Assembly: GCA_031279575.1 (NCBI GenBank)
Contig: JAITIG010000054.1
Location: forward strand, 1 to 32,451
Length of the DNA stretch: 32,451 bases
Direction of reading: 5' to 3'
Origin: Bifidobacteriaceae bacterium
Lineage (GTDB): Bacteria > Actinomycetota > Actinomycetes > Actinomycetales > WQXJ01
The position numbers and the translations under genes are program-made. This document shows, one piece after another, positions 7,964 through 28,977 of this stretch; position 1 is the stretch's first letter, and each line of letters opens with the position of its first letter. Under the pieces are notes generated by a model that did no database searches, was not told where the DNA came from, and saw nothing but the letters and a program-made list of their open reading frames with translations.

Positions 7964-8276
7964 ATTTGGGGGCCGGTCGGGGGGTATTACCGGGAGCGGC
8001 CTGCGGGTACGCGCCGGGCGCAGACACCGCCCGGCGGAGCCGTTACGCTCTATGAGTCTGTTGCCCCCTCCCAGGGGACCCGCGTTCAACCCAGGCCGGT
8101 AGCGAGCGCCCGGCGCGGCGGTGTGGCGAGGCGGCGGCCGCAGCGCGACGCGCCCAGGCCAGCCGCGCGCCGCGCCCCGCCGGCGCCTGCGGCCGCCACC
8201 CGCCCAGGGCCGGGCGCGTCGCCCCGAGGCGGCCGGCGGCGGGCCGAACGACCAGAAACCGCGAAAGGATCTCGCT

Positions 8277-19363: not shown

Positions 19364-19440
19364 GGGCCTATAGCTCAGGCGGTTAGAGCGCTTCCCTGAT
19401 AAGGAAGAGGTCGGAGGTTCAAGTCCTCCTAGGCCCACCA
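19364..19440 (+). tRNA. trnI: tRNA-Ile (GAT anticodon)
   Basis: A complete cloverleaf. The acceptor GGGCCTA (19364-19370) pairs with TAGGCCC (19430-19436). The D-arm is AGCTCAGGCGGTTAGAGC, the anticodon stem CTTCC/GGAAG has loop CTGATAA with anticodon GAT at 19398-19400, and the T-arm GGAGG-TTCAAGT-CCTCC is intact. A 3'-terminal CCA is encoded (19438-19440). tRNA-Ile after gyrA is conserved in actinobacteria; the tRNA-Ala that often follows is absent. Confidence 0.97.
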
Positions 19441-20725: not shown

Positions 20726-20822
20726 CTGGGGCGGCGGAGCAACAAAGCTGTTCGGCGAGGCGCGCCAGCAGTTGCGTCCCCAGGGAATGGTTTTTGGCGA
20801 ATATCCCCTGAAAGGCGATGCA

Positions 20823-22094
20823 GTGGCATACAAACTAGACGGTTGGCAGGAGCCGACCTTGGGCGAGAACCTGGTGCGAGCCGGGATCTCAAGGCGGGAC
20901 TTCCTGGCCTACTGCGGCGTCCTGGCGGGGATCTTCGCAGTTGGGGCCGGCGCCAAACCGGCCAGCGCCGAGCAGGTGGCGGAGAAACTGGCGGCCGTGG
21001 CCAAGCCGAACGTGGTCTGGCTGCAACTCCAAGAATGCACCGGCTGCATGGAATCGGCCCTGCGCTCAGGCGGCACCACAGTCGAGGAGGTGGTCCTCAA
21101 CCTGCTTTCGGTCAACTACAACGAACTGGTCATGGCCCCCTCCGGGGATGCCGCCAACCAGGCCTTGGCCGAGGCCAACGCCTCAGACCACATCTTGGTG
21201 GTCAACGGCTCAATCCCCACCAAGGACGGCGGCATCTACTGCACCATCGGCGGCGAATCCGCCGAAGAGGTGCTGCGCCAGTCGGCCGAGCACGCCAGCG
21301 CCATCTTGGCGGTGGGCGCCTGCGCCGTCTGGGGCTCGGTCCAAGCCTCCAAACCCAACCCCACCGGGGCGGTTGGAGTGGACCAGATCATCCGCGACAA
21401 GCCAGTCATCAACGTGGCCGGCTGCCCGCCCATCGGGGAGGTGATCACAGCCACCGTCAGCTACATCTTGACCCACGACTCGTTGCCCAAGACCGACGCC
21501 GAGGGCCGGCCGCTGTTCGCCTACGAGCAGCGCATCCACGACTCCTGCCCCAGGCGCGCCCACTTCGACGCCGGCCAATATGTGCGCTCATTCGACGACG
21601 AGGGCGCCCGGGCCGGCTGGTGCCTCTACGATGTCGGCTGCAAAGGCCCGTCCACCTTCAGCCCCTGCCCCATCTTCCAGTGGAACTTGCACACCAACTG
21701 GCCGGTCGGGGCCGGCCATCCCTGCATCGGGTGCACCGAGAAGGACTTCTTCGACCGGTTCACGCCGTTCTACGAGGTTTTGCCGAACGTCACCGGCCTG
21801 GGCGTGGAGGCGACGGCGGCCAAGATCGGCTGGGGCCTGGTGGGCGCCACGGTGGCCGGAGTCGGCGCCCACGCCGGTTTGACCGCCCTGCGGCGCGCCA
21901 CCACCCGCAAAGCCGATTCCGCCCAACCCCTTGAGGCCTTCGGCGACCCGCCAGGGCGCCCCGGCCAGGCCGACTGCGCCTGCGGCGCCGGCGGCGGGGG
22001 CGCCAAGGGCGGACGGGTGCGGCTGGGCAACCCGACGGCGGCGGGCGGCGGCCAGGCGGCGGCGGCAGATCTAGTTGACGGGCAAGGGAGGTAG
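20823..22094 (+). CDS. hyaA: [NiFe]-hydrogenase small subunit, Tat-exported
   Basis: A 423-residue group 1 small subunit. GTG 20823 has AAAGG 7 nt upstream, and the product opens with a twin-arginine signal (ISRRDFLAYCG at 22-32, hydrophobic core to about 49, ASA/E cleavage). Cluster ligands are all present: proximal [4Fe-4S] Cys72, Cys75, Cys167, Cys201; distal His239, Cys242, Cys267, Cys273; medial Cys282, Cys301, Cys304. The proximal motif is C-T-G-C, the standard four-cysteine form, so the six-cysteine oxygen-tolerant type is not indicated. A C-terminal hydrophobic helix (about 334-353) would anchor it to the membrane. A Gly/Ala-rich tail of about 65 residues follows. The large-subunit gene starts 3 nt later. 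Confidence 0.95.
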   Translation: MAYKLDGWQEPTLGENLVRAGISRRDFLAYCGVLAGIFAVGAGAKPASAEQVAEKLAAVAKPNVVWLQLQECTGCMESALRSGGTTVEEVVLNLLSVNYNELVMAPSGDAANQALAEANASDHILVVNGSIPTKDGGIYCTIGGESAEEVLRQSAEHASAILAVGACAVWGSVQASKPNPTGAVGVDQIIRDKPVINVAGCPPIGEVITATVSYILTHDSLPKTDAEGRPLFAYEQRIHDSCPRRAHFDAGQYVRSFDDEGARAGWCLYDVGCKGPSTFSPCPIFQWNLHTNWPVGAGHPCIGCTEKDFFDRFTPFYEVLPNVTGLGVEATAAKIGWGLVGATVAGVGAHAGLTALRRATTRKADSAQPLEAFGDPPGRPGQADCACGAGGGGAKGGRVRLGNPTAAGGGQAAAADLVDGQGR

Positions 22095-22097
22095 ACG

Positions 22098-23837
22098 ATG
22101 GCGAACCGGCTTGTGATCGACCCGATCACCCGCATCGAGGGCCACCTGCGGATCGAGTTGGAGACCGAGGACGGCAAAATCACCCAGGCCTGGAGTGAGA
22201 CCACCCAGTACAGAGGCCTGGAGGAAATTGTCCAAGGGCGCGACCCGAGGGATGTGTGGGCGTTTGTGCAGCGCATCTGCGGGGTGTGCACCTCGGTCCA
22301 CGCCATCGCCTCGATTGTGGCGGTGGAAAACGCCATCGGCTCCAACCCGCCCGCCCAGGCGCGCCTGATCAGGGACATGGTGCTGGCCTCCCAGGAGGTC
22401 CAAGACCACGTGATCCACTTCTACCACCTCCACGCCTTGGATTTTGTCGACGTCACCTCGGCCGCGCGGGCGGACCCGCAGGCGGCGGTGGACTTCGCCC
22501 GGGCCATCGGCTCGACTTGGCGCGGCAACACCCTGGAGCGGATGACAGAGGTGCGCGACACGGTCCAAGGCATTTTGGATTCCGGCCAGTTGAGCATCTT
22601 CACCGGCGGCTACTGGGGCCACCCGGACTACCGGCTGCCGCCGGAGGCCAACCTGATGGCGGTGGCCCACTACCTCGACGCGTTGGAGTTCCAACGCTCC
22701 ATGATCCGCATCGGGACAGTCTTCGGCGGCAAAAACCCGCACCCGAACTTCCTGGTGGGCGGCATGGCCTGCTCTATCGACCCGGTTCACACCGAATCGG
22801 TCAACCAGGTGCAGATCGACCAGGTGGGGGTGTGGGTGGCGGAGTCGCTCGAGTTTGTCAAAGCCTGCTACGTGCCGGACGCGCTGGCCATCGCCGGGGT
22901 TTACAAAGACTACTTCGACATTGGCGCGGCCCAGGACAACTACCTGGCGGTGGGCTTGGCGGGGGCGACTTTCGCGGGCGACCCGGCTGATTCCGGCCTG
23001 GCCAGCGCCCACACGGCGATCCGCCCCGGGGTGATCTTCGACGGCGACTTGACCACGATCCATCCCTTCGACCCGCAGAAAATCGAAGAGTGGGTGCATT
23101 CGGCCTGGTACTCCTATGAGGGCGGCGACATCGGCCTGAAACCCAGCGTGGGCGAGACCACCGTGGCCTACACCGGCCCCAAGCCGCCTTACAAGTGGCT
23201 GGCGGACTCAGATGAGTACACCTGGTGCAAGGCGCCCCGGTATGACGGCCGCGCCGTCCAGGTGGGGCCGCTGGCGCGGGTGGTGCTGGCCTACGCCCAG
23301 GGCCACGCCCGCACGGTGGAGATAGTCGACGCCGCCATGGCCCAACTGGGGATCACCGCCGCCCAGCTCAACTCCACCGCGGGCCGCACCTTGGCGCGGG
23401 CGGTCGAATGCCTGACCTCGGCGGAGATCTTGGCTGAGGAGACTTTCCCAACCTTTGTCCAAAACCTCAAGGGCGGCGACATCGACGTCTTCGACGCCTC
23501 GCGCTGGGAGCCCAGCTCTTGGCCGTCGGAATGCTCCGGGGTGTCGTTTGTGGAGGTGGCGCGGGGCAACTTGAGCCATTGGGTGACCATTGAGAACCGC
23601 AAGGTGGCGCGCTACCAGGCGGTGGTGCCCACCACCTGGCTGGCCGGCGGGCGGGACGCCGAGGGGCAAATGGGCCCCTACGAGGTCTCTTTGGCGGGCG
23701 ATGGCCGCCACCCGCTGATCGACCCGGCCCAACCGTTGGAGCCGCTGCGCACCATCCACTCGTTTGACCCGTGCATGTCTTGCGCCGTCCATGTGCTGGA
23801 CCCGGGCGGGGGGCAGACCCAGGCGGTGGCGCGGTGA
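22098..23837 (+). CDS. hyaB: [NiFe]-hydrogenase large subunit
   Basis: A 579-residue catalytic subunit, starting ATG 22098 with AGGGAGGT at 22085-22092. It begins with the typical RLVIDPITRIEGHLRIE. The L1 motif is RICGVCTSVH (Cys61, Cys64) and the L2 motif is DPCMSCAVH (Cys559, Cys562, His565); these four cysteines hold the Ni-Fe(CN)2CO centre. The 14 residues after His565 form the C-terminal peptide removed by the maturation protease encoded two genes downstream. It is exported with the small subunit after cofactor insertion, as known for the family. It overlaps the cytochrome b gene by 4 nt (GTGA). Confidence 0.97.
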   Translation: MANRLVIDPITRIEGHLRIELETEDGKITQAWSETTQYRGLEEIVQGRDPRDVWAFVQRICGVCTSVHAIASIVAVENAIGSNPPAQARLIRDMVLASQEVQDHVIHFYHLHALDFVDVTSAARADPQAAVDFARAIGSTWRGNTLERMTEVRDTVQGILDSGQLSIFTGGYWGHPDYRLPPEANLMAVAHYLDALEFQRSMIRIGTVFGGKNPHPNFLVGGMACSIDPVHTESVNQVQIDQVGVWVAESLEFVKACYVPDALAIAGVYKDYFDIGAAQDNYLAVGLAGATFAGDPADSGLASAHTAIRPGVIFDGDLTTIHPFDPQKIEEWVHSAWYSYEGGDIGLKPSVGETTVAYTGPKPPYKWLADSDEYTWCKAPRYDGRAVQVGPLARVVLAYAQGHARTVEIVDAAMAQLGITAAQLNSTAGRTLARAVECLTSAEILAEETFPTFVQNLKGGDIDVFDASRWEPSSWPSECSGVSFVEVARGNLSHWVTIENRKVARYQAVVPTTWLAGGRDAEGQMGPYEVSLAGDGRHPLIDPAQPLEPLRTIHSFDPCMSCAVHVLDPGGGQTQAVAR

Positions 23838-25063
23838 ATGTGGCGCTCAAGGCCCCAGGCCGCCCGGAGCCGGCGGACCAGGTGGAGGTGCAGGTTGGCG
23901 GGGCTTTCACGGTGGGGGCGCTGAGCGAGGGCGTGGTCCTGGGTTTGGCGGCGGTGACCAGCGCGGACAGCTCCGACCCGGTCGATTTGGCGTTGCGCCG
24001 CGCTTTGGCCCAGGAGCGGCCGGATTTGGAGAAGCCGCCGGTCGACCCGGCCGATGTCGACCCGGCCACCCCCCGCCAGCGCTACCGGTTGACCTTGGTG
24101 CATTATTTCCCGCTGCGCGATGACGAGCACGCCGACGTGGTGGTGATGCGCGGCGCCCTGGAGCCGGTCTTGGCCAAGGCCGCCATCTCGCGCCGAGACA
24201 AGGCGCTGATCCGCCGCAACGCGGCCTGGGCGCTGGCCCGGGGTTGGCGGGCGCTGGCGGTGGCGACCGCGCCGGTGACGGGCCGCGACCAGGTGGGGCA
24301 GTTCACGGTGCAGGGCTTTGTCTACGTTGGCGTGGGCCGGGCCAGGCCGCTGCCCAACGAGGGGCCGTCAAACTGGGCTTGGGTGCAGGTCTGGTCGGCT
24401 TCGCTGCGGGTCCAGCATTGGCTCAATGTGGCGGTGGTTTTCACGCTCAGCTGCACCGGCTACATCATCATGGACCCGTTCTTTGGCCCCACCGCCGGGC
24501 GCGGCGAGGAGGTTGGGTTTTTGATGGGCTGGGTGCGGCTGATCCACTTCTCGGTGGGGTTTTTGTGGATTCTGGTCGGTTTGACCCGGGTGGTTGCGGC
24601 CTTCACCTCGCGTGACCGCCACCTGCGCTGGAACGCCTGGTGGCCGCTCAAGAGCAAAACCGACGTCAAACGCTTGGGCCTGGTGGTGGGGCATTACGCG
24701 CTGATCAAGCACGAGGCGCCGCTTTACCTGGCGCACAACCCGCTCCAGCAGCTCACCTACACCGGCCTCTATATGATTTGCGGCCTGCAGATGATGACCG
24801 GCCTGACCCTGTTTGGGCTCTACCACCAGGCGAACTGGTTCTGGGCCTTGATGGCGGTGCCAACCCATTGGGTGGGTGTGCCGTTTGTGCGCCTGGTCCA
24901 CACCATCATCATGTTCGTCTTGTGGGCTTTTGTGATTGTGCACGTCTACTTGGCGGTGCGGGCCGACTCCTTGGAGCGCCACGGCGGCATCTCCTCGATG
25001 ATCAACGGCGGGGTCTGGCTGCGCCGCGGCGCCCGCCCGGTGGACGCCCCGGAGATTGGGTGA
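23834..25063 (+). CDS. hyaC: Hydrogenase cytochrome b subunit with N-terminal P-type-ATPase N-domain-like region
   Basis: A 409-residue protein from GTG 23834, whose start overlaps the hyaB stop. Residues about 185-380 are an ordinary HyaC/HupC cytochrome b: four transmembrane helices (about 196-213, 233-256, 304-328, 351-376) with candidate haem histidines His195, His238, His356 and His370; it would anchor the enzyme and pass electrons to quinone. Residues about 18-168 are extra. They read like a P-type ATPase nucleotide-binding domain: LGLAAVTSADSSDPVDLAL, then YFPLRDDEHADVVV, then MRGALEPVL in place of the KGAPE motif (Lys replaced by Arg106), then ARGWRALAVA and a closing FTVQGFVYVG. There is no DKTGT phosphorylation motif. 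The reading frame is continuous through both parts. It overlaps the protease gene by 4 nt. Confidence 0.85.
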   Translation: MNVALKAPGRPEPADQVEVQVGGAFTVGALSEGVVLGLAAVTSADSSDPVDLALRRALAQERPDLEKPPVDPADVDPATPRQRYRLTLVHYFPLRDDEHADVVVMRGALEPVLAKAAISRRDKALIRRNAAWALARGWRALAVATAPVTGRDQVGQFTVQGFVYVGVGRARPLPNEGPSNWAWVQVWSASLRVQHWLNVAVVFTLSCTGYIIMDPFFGPTAGRGEEVGFLMGWVRLIHFSVGFLWILVGLTRVVAAFTSRDRHLRWNAWWPLKSKTDVKRLGLVVGHYALIKHEAPLYLAHNPLQQLTYTGLYMICGLQMMTGLTLFGLYHQANWFWALMAVPTHWVGVPFVRLVHTIIMFVLWAFVIVHVYLAVRADSLERHGGISSMINGGVWLRRGARPVDAPEIG

Positions 25064-25683
25064 CCGCCCCGCCGCCCGCCGGCCGCCCGGCCGACCCCCG
25101 CCCGTCGGCCGGGCCGCCACCCCCGCCGCCCGCCGCCGCCCGCCCGCCGGCCGGGCCGCCAACCCCGCCGCCCCCCGCTCGCCCGGCCGACCCCCGCCCG
25201 CCGGCCGGGCCGCTGGCGGCGGCGCCGGGGGTGACAGTCTTGGCTGTCGGCAATCCCATCATGGCCGATGACGGCGTTGGCCCAGCCCTGCTGGCGGCCC
25301 TGCGGCAAACCTGCCCGTCGGCCGCGGTCGAATGGGTCGACGGCGGCATCGGCGGCTTGGATTTGCTGCCGGTGGTGGAGGACGCCGAGCGCCTGCTGGT
25401 GCTCGACGCGGTGGTGGGCGAGGCGCCCGGCCAGGTGGTGCGCTGGGACGGCGACCAGCTTCCCCGCCTGCTGGCCGCCAAGCTGTCGCCCCACCAGGTG
25501 GGGCTGCTGGATGTGTTCTCGGCCGCCCGCCTGCTGGGGCGCGAGCCAAGCGAGGTGGTGGTGGTGGGAATCGCGCCCGGCAGGGTGGCGCTGGGGCCGG
25601 GCCTGACCCCCCCGGTCGAGGCGGCCCTGCCGGCGGCGGCCGCCCTGGCCGCGGCTGTGCTGGAAGCCTGGGGGGTCGCCTGA
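25060..25683 (+). CDS. hyaD: Hydrogenase maturation protease (HybD/HyaD family)
   Basis: A 207-residue frame from GTG 25060, overlapping the hyaC stop (GTGA). The endopeptidase domain begins at about residue 58 (VTVLAVGNPIMADDGVG, supplying the first acidic metal ligand) and continues with VLDAVVG (Asp ligand) and SPHQVGLLD (His ligand). These three residues bind nickel in the immature large subunit during removal of its C-terminal peptide. The first about 57 residues are a Pro/Ala/Arg repeat with no family counterpart. Either they are a genuine extension, or translation begins at the internal GTG 25231; that GTG lacks a Shine-Dalgarno, so the coupled start is marginally preferred. Confidence 0.88.
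   Translation: MTAPPPAGRPADPRPSAGPPPPPPAAARPPAGPPTPPPPARPADPRPPAGPLAAAPGVTVLAVGNPIMADDGVGPALLAALRQTCPSAAVEWVDGGIGGLDLLPVVEDAERLLVLDAVVGEAPGQVVRWDGDQLPRLLAAKLSPHQVGLLDVFSAARLLGREPSEVVVVGIAPGRVALGPGLTPPVEAALPAAAALAAAVLEAWGVA
25084..25213 (+). repeat. Pro-rich coding repeat at the 5' end of the protease gene
   Basis: A 34-nt unit (25084-25117) starting CGCCCGGCCGACCCCCGCCC recurs at 25180-25213, 96 nt later and in frame (32 codons), with one mismatch. Shorter GCCGGCCGGGCCGCC pieces lie between. It encodes RPADPRP-type repeats. Confidence 0.65.
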
Positions 25684-25698: not shown

Positions 25699-26067
25699 TC
25701 AAGTGGGGGGGCCGGCGGGCGGTGTGGGGACCTCGGCGTAGGCGACCTCGAATTCGCGGCCGCGCACCAGTTGGCCGCAAGGCGTGCCGCAAGCCGGGCA
25801 GCGCAGGGCGTAAAACTGGTCGATGCCCTGCTCGCAGGCGCAGTTGGGGCACCACACGGCGGCCTCGACGGCGTCGATGCGAAGTTCCGCGCCGGCCAGC
25901 TTGGTGCCGGCCGTGGCGATGGGCCAGGCGCCTTGGAGCGCCTCCGGCACCGCCCCCGACAAGGCGCCCACCCGCAGCCCAACCCGTTCGACGGCGTCCG
26001 CCCCGGCCGCCCGGGCGGCGGCGTCGACGGCTCGCACCACGGCGCGGAGCAGACCCAACTCATGCAC
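25699..26067 (-). CDS. hypA: Hydrogenase nickel incorporation protein HypA (copy 1)
   Basis: A 122-residue HypA. Translation starts at GTG 26067, so the invariant Met-His-Glu is written GTG-CAT-GAG; His2 is the nickel ligand. Zinc-binding cysteine pairs are CPNC (about 73-76) and CPAC (about 91-94). HypA works with HypB to deliver nickel to the large subunit. It lies alone on the minus strand, convergent with the protease gene (15 nt apart) and divergent from the large-subunit paralog (17 nt between start codons). It is only distantly similar to the second HypA at 28576-28923, so the two may serve different clients or one may serve another nickel enzyme (inference). Confidence 0.9.
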   Translation of the reverse strand: MHELGLLRAVVRAVDAAARAAGADAVERVGLRVGALSGAVPEALQGAWPIATAGTKLAGAELRIDAVEAAVWCPNCACEQGIDQFYALRCPACGTPCGQLVRGREFEVAYAEVPTPPAGPPT

Positions 26068-26072
26068 CGGAC

Positions 26073-26078
26073 TATGGT
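26073..26078 (+). promoter_or_regulatory. Putative -10 (TATGGT) for the large-subunit paralog
   Basis: TATGGT is followed by exactly 6 nt and the GTG at 26085. The whole gap to the divergent hypA start is 17 nt, which leaves no room for a leader, so a leaderless transcript is likely. Confidence 0.4.
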
Positions 26079-26084
26079 GGCACA

Positions 26085-27422
26085 GTGGCTTTGAGAGTGA
26101 TACTCGACCAACCGGTGGAGGGCGTGGGCGCGAGCGTGGTGGTGGAGCGGTCCCCGGCCGGCGCCGCGGTGGGCGCCTACTTGGATTTGGCGGCCTTGCC
26201 GCGCTTGGAGCCGCTGCTGCTGGGGCGCCCCGCGGCGCAGGTCCCGCCGCTGGTGGAGCGCCTGTGCGGGGTCTGCCCGGCGGCCCACCACCTGGCCGGG
26301 GTGGCCGCCTTGGAGGCGTTGGCCGGGTTTGGCCCGCTGCCCGCCGAGGCCCGCCGGGTGCGCCGACTGCTGCATTACGGCTCGGCTTTGACCATGCACG
26401 CGCTGGGTTTCCTGGCCGCCGGCCAGGCCGAGGCGGCCGCTTGGCGCGCCCTGGGCAAGCTGGCGCAGGCCGCCGCCGGCTCACCCGGGCATTTTCCAGC
26501 CAGCGCCCAACTTGGCGGGGTGGCGGCGCCCATGGCGCCCGATGCCGCCGCGGCTTGCCTGGCCGGCGCCCCAGCCGCCCTGGAATTGGCCCGCACTTTG
26601 TTCGCCTGGGCGCAGGCCGGCGCCGGTGGGGATGGCCCCGGCGGGGCGGATGCGGCCCCGGCAGACCGGGCCGGGCGGCTGGGCGCGGCCGGTGGGTCCC
26701 CCGGCGGGGGGGATGGTTTCGGCGGGGCGGATGTGGCCCTGGTGGACCAGGCCGGGCGGCTGGACCCCCTGGGCCAGCGCCTGCGGGCGGTCGGCCCCGA
26801 CGGCGCGGTGCTTGTGGCGGGCGCGCCAGCCAGCCAGTGGGACGCCCTCGTGGCCGAGCGCCGCCCCGGGGCGGCGGCATCGCGGCCCCATTTGCTGGTG
26901 GGGGGCGTGGACGGCGGGTATTACCGGGTTGGCCCGGTGGCCCAGTTGCGGGTGGCGGACCCGGCCACGCCGGCGGCGGCCGCCCTGGCGGCCGAGTGGC
27001 GCGAGCGCGGCGGCGGCGCCCTGGCGGCGCGGGCGGTCCTGGCCGCCGCCTGCGTCGAGGCGATCGCCGCCTTGGCCGCTGGCCCCCGCCAGGTCGGCGC
27101 CCCCCTGGTGGCCCCGGCCCCGGACCAAGCGCTGGACCAGGCCGGCCGCTGCGGCGTGGGCTGGGTGGACGGCGCCCGCGGCCTGCTGGTCCACCGCTAC
27201 CGGGTGGACGCGGCGGGGGCAGTTGACCAAGCGTTGATCTTGACCCCCACGGCGCAAAACGAATACTGGCTGTCGCGCCTGCTGCTGGCCGCCGTCAAGC
27301 GGCAGGCGGGCGAGCCCGGCCTCGAGTTGGCCATCCGGGAAGCGGACCCGTGCTTGCCTTGTGTGGCGGCCCCGCCCGGGCGCATGGGCGTGGTGGTCCG
27401 CACCATTGCGGCGGAGGGGTGA
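26085..27422 (+). CDS. [NiFe]-hydrogenase large-subunit paralog (HupK/HoxV-like scaffold or orphan large subunit)
   Basis: A 445-residue protein, shorter than true large subunits. It keeps an L1-like LVERLCGVCPAAHH (about 59-72) and an L2-like ADPCLPC near the C-terminus, so all four potential nickel cysteines are present. After the last cysteine it reads V-A-A instead of x-x-His, so the protease cleavage site is missing, and there is no export partner or second small-subunit gene. HupK/HoxV proteins are large-subunit homologs that act as scaffolds for the iron-cyanide centre; position among hyp genes and size fit that role. An orphan large subunit is the alternative. A Gly/Asp-rich duplicated insert lies at about residues 186-226. 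It starts leaderless-style at GTG 26085 and is followed by hypC. Confidence 0.7.
   Translation: MALRVILDQPVEGVGASVVVERSPAGAAVGAYLDLAALPRLEPLLLGRPAAQVPPLVERLCGVCPAAHHLAGVAALEALAGFGPLPAEARRVRRLLHYGSALTMHALGFLAAGQAEAAAWRALGKLAQAAAGSPGHFPASAQLGGVAAPMAPDAAAACLAGAPAALELARTLFAWAQAGAGGDGPGGADAAPADRAGRLGAAGGSPGGGDGFGGADVALVDQAGRLDPLGQRLRAVGPDGAVLVAGAPASQWDALVAERRPGAAASRPHLLVGGVDGGYYRVGPVAQLRVADPATPAAAALAAEWRERGGGALAARAVLAAACVEAIAALAAGPRQVGAPLVAPAPDQALDQAGRCGVGWVDGARGLLVHRYRVDAAGAVDQALILTPTAQNEYWLSRLLLAAVKRQAGEPGLELAIREADPCLPCVAAPPGRMGVVVRTIAAEG
26640..26763 (+). repeat. In-frame 43-nt duplication inside the large-subunit paralog
   Basis: 26640-26682 and 26721-26763 (81-nt period, 27 codons) both begin GGCGGGGCGGATG and end GGCCGGGCGGCTGG, with a few substitutions. 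They encode GGADxAxxDxAGRL twice, in a loop that interrupts the conserved fold. Confidence 0.65.
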
Positions 27423-28575: not shown

Positions 28576-28923
28576 TCACGGCGGCTCGCCTGCCACATCG
28601 ATCGACCGGACCAAGAACTCCTCGCCCGCCTCGATTCGCAGCCGGTGGCCCCCGCAGCCGCCGCAGACCAGGCGCAGCGCGGGGCCAGGCGCGAGGCCGG
28701 CCCCACAATCCTGGCACACCGCCCGCGCCGGGATGTGGTTGACGGCCAGTTCCGCGCCCGCCAGCGGCGTGCCGGCGGTGACAACCTGCCAGCAGCGGGC
28801 CAAGGTCTGGGGCACCACCTGGCGCAGCTGCCCCACGTCCAGCGCCACCTGGGTGACGCGCCTGCCGCCCGCCGCCCGCCGCGCGATGCCGTAGATGGAC
28901 TGGCACAGCGACAGTTCATGCAC
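28576..28923 (-). CDS. hypA: Hydrogenase nickel incorporation protein HypA (copy 2)
   Basis: A 115-residue HypA starting at GTG 28923 (Met-His-Glu-Leu-Ser written GTG-CAT-GAA-CTG-TCG). The nickel-binding N-terminus and the zinc motif pairs CQDC and CGGC are intact. It is the partner of hypB directly downstream (47 nt), so this copy is the likelier standard hydrogenase HypA. It has no Shine-Dalgarno; TAGTGT lies 8 nt upstream, suggesting a leaderless message. An open frame extends 17 codons further upstream, but the family's N-terminus is at this GTG. Confidence 0.93.
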   Translation of the reverse strand: MHELSLCQSIYGIARRAAGGRRVTQVALDVGQLRQVVPQTLARCWQVVTAGTPLAGAELAVNHIPARAVCQDCGAGLAPGPALRLVCGGCGGHRLRIEAGEEFLVRSIDVAGEPP

Positions 28924-28931
28924 AAGCCGAA

Positions 28932-28937
28932 ACACTA
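28932..28937 (-). promoter_or_regulatory. Putative -10 (TAGTGT) for hypA2-hypB
   Basis: On the minus strand TAGTGT (28937-28932) is followed by 8 nt and the hypA2 GTG. No clear -35. Confidence 0.35.
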
Positions 28938-28977
28938 CCGAACCGGCCCCCGGCCCGCCGCCCGCGTCATGCATCAG

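Follow-up and report, generated by a model that had tools for sequence, protein, structure and literature searches.

In a 32,451-nucleotide contig of a Bifidobacteriaceae bacterium (JAITIG010000054.1, assembly GCA_031279575.1; hereafter the window), we found a gene in which the b-type cytochrome of a [NiFe] hydrogenase is fused to an N-terminal module predicted to adopt the fold of the nucleotide-binding domain (N-domain) of P-type ATPases. With a little less than even confidence, we read its product as the cytochrome b on the quinone side of an exported [NiFe] uptake hydrogenase, carrying a divergent N-domain, whose cleft would bind an anionic ligand and modulate electron entry. The gene and its two parts are as follows.

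23834..25063, forward strand: fused gene, N-domain-like module plus hydrogenase b-type cytochrome, 409 amino acids (aa).
23882..24340, forward strand: N-terminal module, residues 17 to 169, with a predicted P-type ATPase N-domain fold (two models, Foldseek, VIA-align, and hhalign with shuffles).
24389..25009, forward strand: HyaC/HupC-type cytochrome b part, residues 186 to 392, with histidines 195, 238, 356, and 370.

Translation of the window gives an uninterrupted open frame from a GTG at 23834 to the stop at 25063, the GTG overlapping the stop codon of the upstream hyaB (GTGA) and an alternative in-frame GTG lying at 23840; the initial annotation, made from the letters alone, had likewise described one continuous frame joining an N-terminal part to cytochrome b. 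That a frame error or assembly chimera produced this gene has a negligible probability, for although the fusion is not checkable within the window's own assembly, the same fusion is read in 20 loci from other records, and it is on account of this conservation that we rejected the idea. The cytochrome part is intact: it scores 128.3 bits against TIGR02125 (cut-off, 121.5) and 87 bits against PF01292 (cut-off, 30.1), and its four transmembrane histidines are invariant in all 36 distinct fusions. The inner loop between transmembrane helices 2 and 3 contains 8 Lys+Arg versus 3 Asp+Glu, and the outer loops contain 1 and 0 Lys+Arg. These charges favor a cytoplasmic N terminus, opposite the exported hydrogenase dimer, and so support the cytoplasmic side previously proposed for the extra domain; the C-terminal tail is neutral (4 versus 4 charges).

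Both predicted structural models of the module (m0da737276faf and m543765cc87e8) show an N-domain fold in Foldseek and VIA-align comparisons, in keeping with the fold that the initial annotation had proposed from motifs; the alignment with P-type ATPase N-domains extends across residues 1 to 152 of 170, and the closest fold is the Pma1 N-domain. Among the motifs that it quoted, LAAVTSADSSDPVDLAL, RGALE, and GWRALAVA are present, while its assignment of an F-x-P-[FL] strand is doubtful: YFPL occupies residues 91 to 94, and the profile alignment instead sets P77-A78-T79-P80 opposite the P-F-E-S of a type II pump, so that the Phe is replaced by Ala. It was right that the phosphorylation domain (P-domain) is missing, the DKTGT phosphorylation motif being absent from the 409-aa frame, and without a P-domain neither phosphoryl transfer nor pumping can take place. 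For profile-profile comparison, we took the stretches between DKTGT and TGD in pumps encoded by the same or by related genomes, namely, a type II set (n = 9, one stretch, L039, being cut at 42 aa) and a type IB set (n = 18, including near-copies). The module scored 29.4 against the type II set (maximum of 150 column shuffles, 18.2; reversed set, 13.5) and 39.8 against the type IB set (shuffle maximum, 18.4; reversed set, 15.9), and its resemblance to pumps thus exceeds chance. Its first half looks like type IB and its second half like types II and III. The module start (profile positions ~5 to 61) resembles the start of the type IB-like N-domains of pumps L052 to L058 and L060 (e.g., VSGISEGRVLALAAAAEANSEHP in L052), a likeness closer for this start than for the second half.

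A different part of the pump, the end of the type IB P-domain (ADIVLMRxDLxxV...SR...IRxN), also resembles the module, with matches to TIGR01525 (E = 0.0015, at its positions 485 to 532), to HMA4 in a profile search (E = 5e-4), and to L059 at module profile positions 80 to 128. The likeness to the last helix of that domain is real over 40 to 50 residues and is unsupported by either model. That the module derives its resemblance from there and not from an N-domain is very improbable, since this short stretch contrasts with the 152 residues over which the model aligns with N-domains, and of the 10 weak matches found in genomes, 9 fall within the first third of the module profile (positions 4 to 61).

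The ATP site of SERCA is formed by E442, F487, R489, K515, R560, and L562 (PMC7313052, section 4.1). The corresponding stretches of the module lie as follows, and we counted the conservation of the cleft over the 36 distinct fusions.

23975..23986, forward strand: D48-P49-V50-D51, with D48 aligned to the SEHP-motif His of type IB pumps and D51 to the PTE-motif Glu of type II pumps.
24065..24082, forward strand: A78 (place of F487) to R83 (place of K492), from hhalign.
24149..24154, forward strand: R106-G107, with RG replacing the KG of KGAPE (K515).
24248..24256, forward strand: R139-A140-L141, spanning the places of R560 and L562.

Asp stands at position 48 in 36/36 fusions, and position 83 is Arg in 33 and Lys in 3. 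R106, G107, R139, and L141 are each invariant, R106 and G107 being the first two residues of the RGALE that the initial annotation had noted in place of KGAPE. In SERCA, the Glu of PTE is E442, and K492 is a further cleft residue, in whose place R83 stands; the E442 and K515 places hold like residues (Asp in 33/36 at position 51, Arg in 36/36 at position 106). In the type II alignment, the partners of D51, A78, R83, and R139 are, respectively, the Glu of PTE, the Phe of PFxS, the Lys that follows it, and the Arg of GLRVLA; R106-G107 pairs with the I-G of VIGAPD, KG being found in other pumps of the set. Conservation at the six published cleft positions exceeds that of six randomly drawn module columns, a level matched in 0.14% of draws; for the four charged positions alone, the comparison with random columns is less clear (2.3% of draws). 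As far as the sequence can tell, the cleft would thus be kept for an anionic ligand and altered at the place where adenine would stack.

To determine where the fusion occurs, we searched 5.8 billion proteins with residues 1 to 175 and recovered 25 (24 besides the window's own), all of them containing PF01292; this search covered proteins of ~225 to 716 aa, a size range outside which whole pumps and larger fusions fall. A search for a stand-alone module among proteins of ~94 to 297 aa, in which the best 7,994 candidates by shared words were scored, gave three matches: P0010 and P0026 (both named "partial") and P0027 (which has PF01292 and whose longest contig is 1,054 bases). Scanning species genomes with the module alignment recovered 20 loci, every one read as a fusion, and conservation in relatives, beside hydrogenase genes, was thereby borne out. 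None of the three outcomes that the initial annotation had named as refuting it (absence of an N-domain fold, a frame error, or lack of conservation) occurred, the fold being judged from predicted structures. By record title, they belong to Propionibacteriaceae (9), Bifidobacteriaceae (6), Micrococcales (2), Actinomycetes (1), Arcanobacterium (1), and Cellulomonas (1). Five of the 20 (L010, L013, L015, L016, and L019) bear the sample codes Nt197, Emb289, Th196, and Cu122, which PMC7024585 assigns to higher-termite gut metagenomes.

At successive taxonomic depths, the cytochrome was found in 10 of the 18 genomes in the family of G001, with the module in the same 10, and in 13 of 297 genomes of the order sample, 10 of these being fused. 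The class sample (394 genomes) contained 11 cytochromes of at least 119 bits, of which 1 is fused (L064), 9 have no in-frame upstream module, and 1 (L065) is cut at a contig edge; in the phylum sample, the cytochrome (E ≤ 1e-20) occurs in 56 of 396 genomes and the module in one, G001. These genome searches with the module scored 9 to 12 candidates per genome, and a divergent copy could therefore be missed. In a tree of 63 cytochromes (42 fused and 21 not), all of the fused rows fall on one side of a single branch (support, 100/98). Most simply, the fusion arose once, in the ancestor of an actinobacterial clade; with some long branches meeting in this tree, a single change is compatible with one origin and does not demonstrate it. 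The module is under selection against amino acid change: by counting, the ratio of nonsynonymous to synonymous substitution rates (dN/dS) between the window and L001, L002, and L003 is 0.14, 0.26, and 0.25 for the module and 0.18, 0.15, and 0.12 for the cytochrome.

The fused gene sits in a hydrogenase cluster in the order CbiM-type metal transporter, hyaA, hyaB, fused gene, hyaD, hypA, second large-subunit-like gene, hypC, hypB, hypA, and hypF. Coordinates of several of these genes follow.

20784..22094, forward strand: hyaA, small subunit of the [NiFe] hydrogenase (start provisional); a Tat-type leader (SRRDFLAYCG) is seen by eye.
22098..23837, forward strand: hyaB, [NiFe] hydrogenase large subunit (best match, 3myr_B; E = 2.9e-175).
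25204..25683, forward strand: hyaD, HycI-type maturation protease part, located after the fusion in 20/20 loci.
25699 to 26100, reverse strand: hypA (PF01155).
25941 to 27422, forward strand: second NiFe large-subunit-like protein, weakly matching the start of PF00374 (profile positions 3 to 70).
28576 to 28974, reverse strand: other copy of hypA (PF01155).

Across the fusion loci, hyaB precedes the fusion in 19/20, the exception (L011) being a contig that begins inside the fusion's module, and hyaA does so in 16/20. The small subunit has the motif ECTGC, which lacks the first extra cysteine of O2-tolerant enzymes. Several further features of the locus were observed. An open-frame, proline-rich stretch of about 47 residues (window positions 25063 to 25203) is seen by eye ahead of the HyaD protease part, and two HypA nickel chaperones, both PF01155, are encoded in the one cluster. 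A separate PF00374 match is found in 16/20 fusion loci, the contigs of the other 4 ending soon after hyaD/hypA; the second large-subunit-like protein may be a HupK-type scaffold. Within window positions 8100 to 32000, the cluster comes after the replication-origin genes dnaA-recF-gyrB-gyrA (recognized by eye), and a tRNA-Ile lies at 19364 to 19440.

On the reading that we favor, the domain would lie in the cytoplasm, attached where the first transmembrane helix begins, and an anionic ligand, for which a nucleotide or another phosphorylated metabolite is the likeliest candidate, would bind in its cleft (R83, R106, R139, and D48/D51); occupancy would alter heme/quinone access or the stability of the complex, so that the state of the cell would govern how electrons from H2 pass into the menaquinone pool. 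We searched 12 fusion-bearing genomes, which account for 12 of the 20 loci; menD scores over the cut-off in 10 and cytochrome bd in 10, so in most of them these electrons could reach menaquinone and oxygen. The more specific form of the proposal, in which the electron-exit subunit has its own cytoplasmic sensor of adenine nucleotides (or a related metabolite), taken from a pump N-domain and allosterically gating H2 oxidation into the menaquinone pool, we consider somewhat unlikely. Several observations count against ligand binding or the N-domain assignment. The F487 place is Ala in 35/36 fusions, and the R489 place (position 80) is not kept, being Pro in 21 and Arg in 6 of 36; of the conserved cleft positions, G107, L141, and A78 may be structural. 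No Pfam family was matched by the first 189 residues, and the modules of 14 relatives matched only three unrelated Pfam families, each through a single module (best E, 0.0055), with no match to PF13246 (Cation_ATPase) at E ≤ 5; NCBIfam likewise gave no informative family for the module. The hhalign probabilities are modest and the alignments partial (24% for type II over query columns 30 to 132; 85% for type IB over columns 3 to 44). The module also changes faster than the cytochrome (identity to the window, 39 to 77% versus 61 to 89%), and its dN/dS is higher against L005, L004, L013, and L020 (0.32, 0.44, 0.51, and 0.72), comparisons in which synonymous sites have probably reached saturation. 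With Ala for the stacking Phe and no R489, despite the basic residues and the acid, the cleft may hold some other anion or a nucleotide bound in a different way, or it may have no ligand at all.

The main rival is that the N-domain fold is reused, with no small ligand, as a cytoplasmic platform for docking or assembly (for a partner protein, dimers of the complex, or insertion and maturation). We regard this as quite possible: the loss of the adenine-stacking Phe and R489 agrees with it, invariant residues can equally be interaction or core residues, and the gene lies among the maturation genes hyaD, hypA, hypC, hypB, and hypF. A docking-only surface would not, however, need positions 83, 106, and 139 to stay Arg/Lys in 36/36 fusions, and no clade-specific partner was noticed, though no systematic search for one was made. 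That the module is a relic merely padding or stabilizing the cytochrome N terminus would agree with other actinobacterial hydrogenase cytochromes managing without it; we judge this improbable in view of the low module dN/dS of the closest pairs, the lack of any fused row outside the single tree group, and the invariant cleft residues.

If ligand binding by the module is correct, a ligand domain within the cytochrome would mean regulation of the working enzyme, with H2 uptake directly coupled to the energy state if adenine nucleotides are sensed, and it would show that a P-type ATPase N-domain can serve as a module outside its pump. What is known about how membrane-bound hydrogenases are regulated concerns mainly their genes and their maturation. 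Since the predicted fold of the extra domain is that of the ATP-binding part of ion pumps, a small intracellular molecule may be linked to the use of hydrogen, which would matter for the way in which H2 is spent by these actinobacteria, some of which come from termite guts. To our knowledge, this would be the first N-domain working without a P-domain. Within titles and the beginnings of abstracts in the open-licence PubMed Central (PMC) literature, which lacks most subscription journals, we found no such fusion described; PMC11707648 reports an [FeFe] hydrogenase.

The nearest known systems differ from the window's gene as follows. The cytochrome of Escherichia coli hydrogenase-1, HyaC (PDB codes 4gd3 and 6g94; TIGR02125), has 235 aa and no extra domain, unlike the fused 409 aa. 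Other actinobacterial hydrogenase cytochromes (L062, L063, L065 to L072, and L130 to L132) belong to the same family and lack the module: it had no match at E ≤ 10 in L062, L063, and L065 to L072 (L065 being cut at a contig edge), and none in genome searches of L130 to L132. Compared with type II pumps, the module has Arg for the Lys of KGAPE and Ala for the adenine-stacking Phe. Whereas the Pma1 N-domain (9ugb and 9ugc) is surrounded by the other domains of its pump, the module stands without them. The N-domains solved alone, of MgtA (3gwi), KdpB (1svj), CopA (2voy_J), and HMA8 (5lbk), are pieces of pumps, whereas in the window it is the gene itself that holds a lone N-domain.
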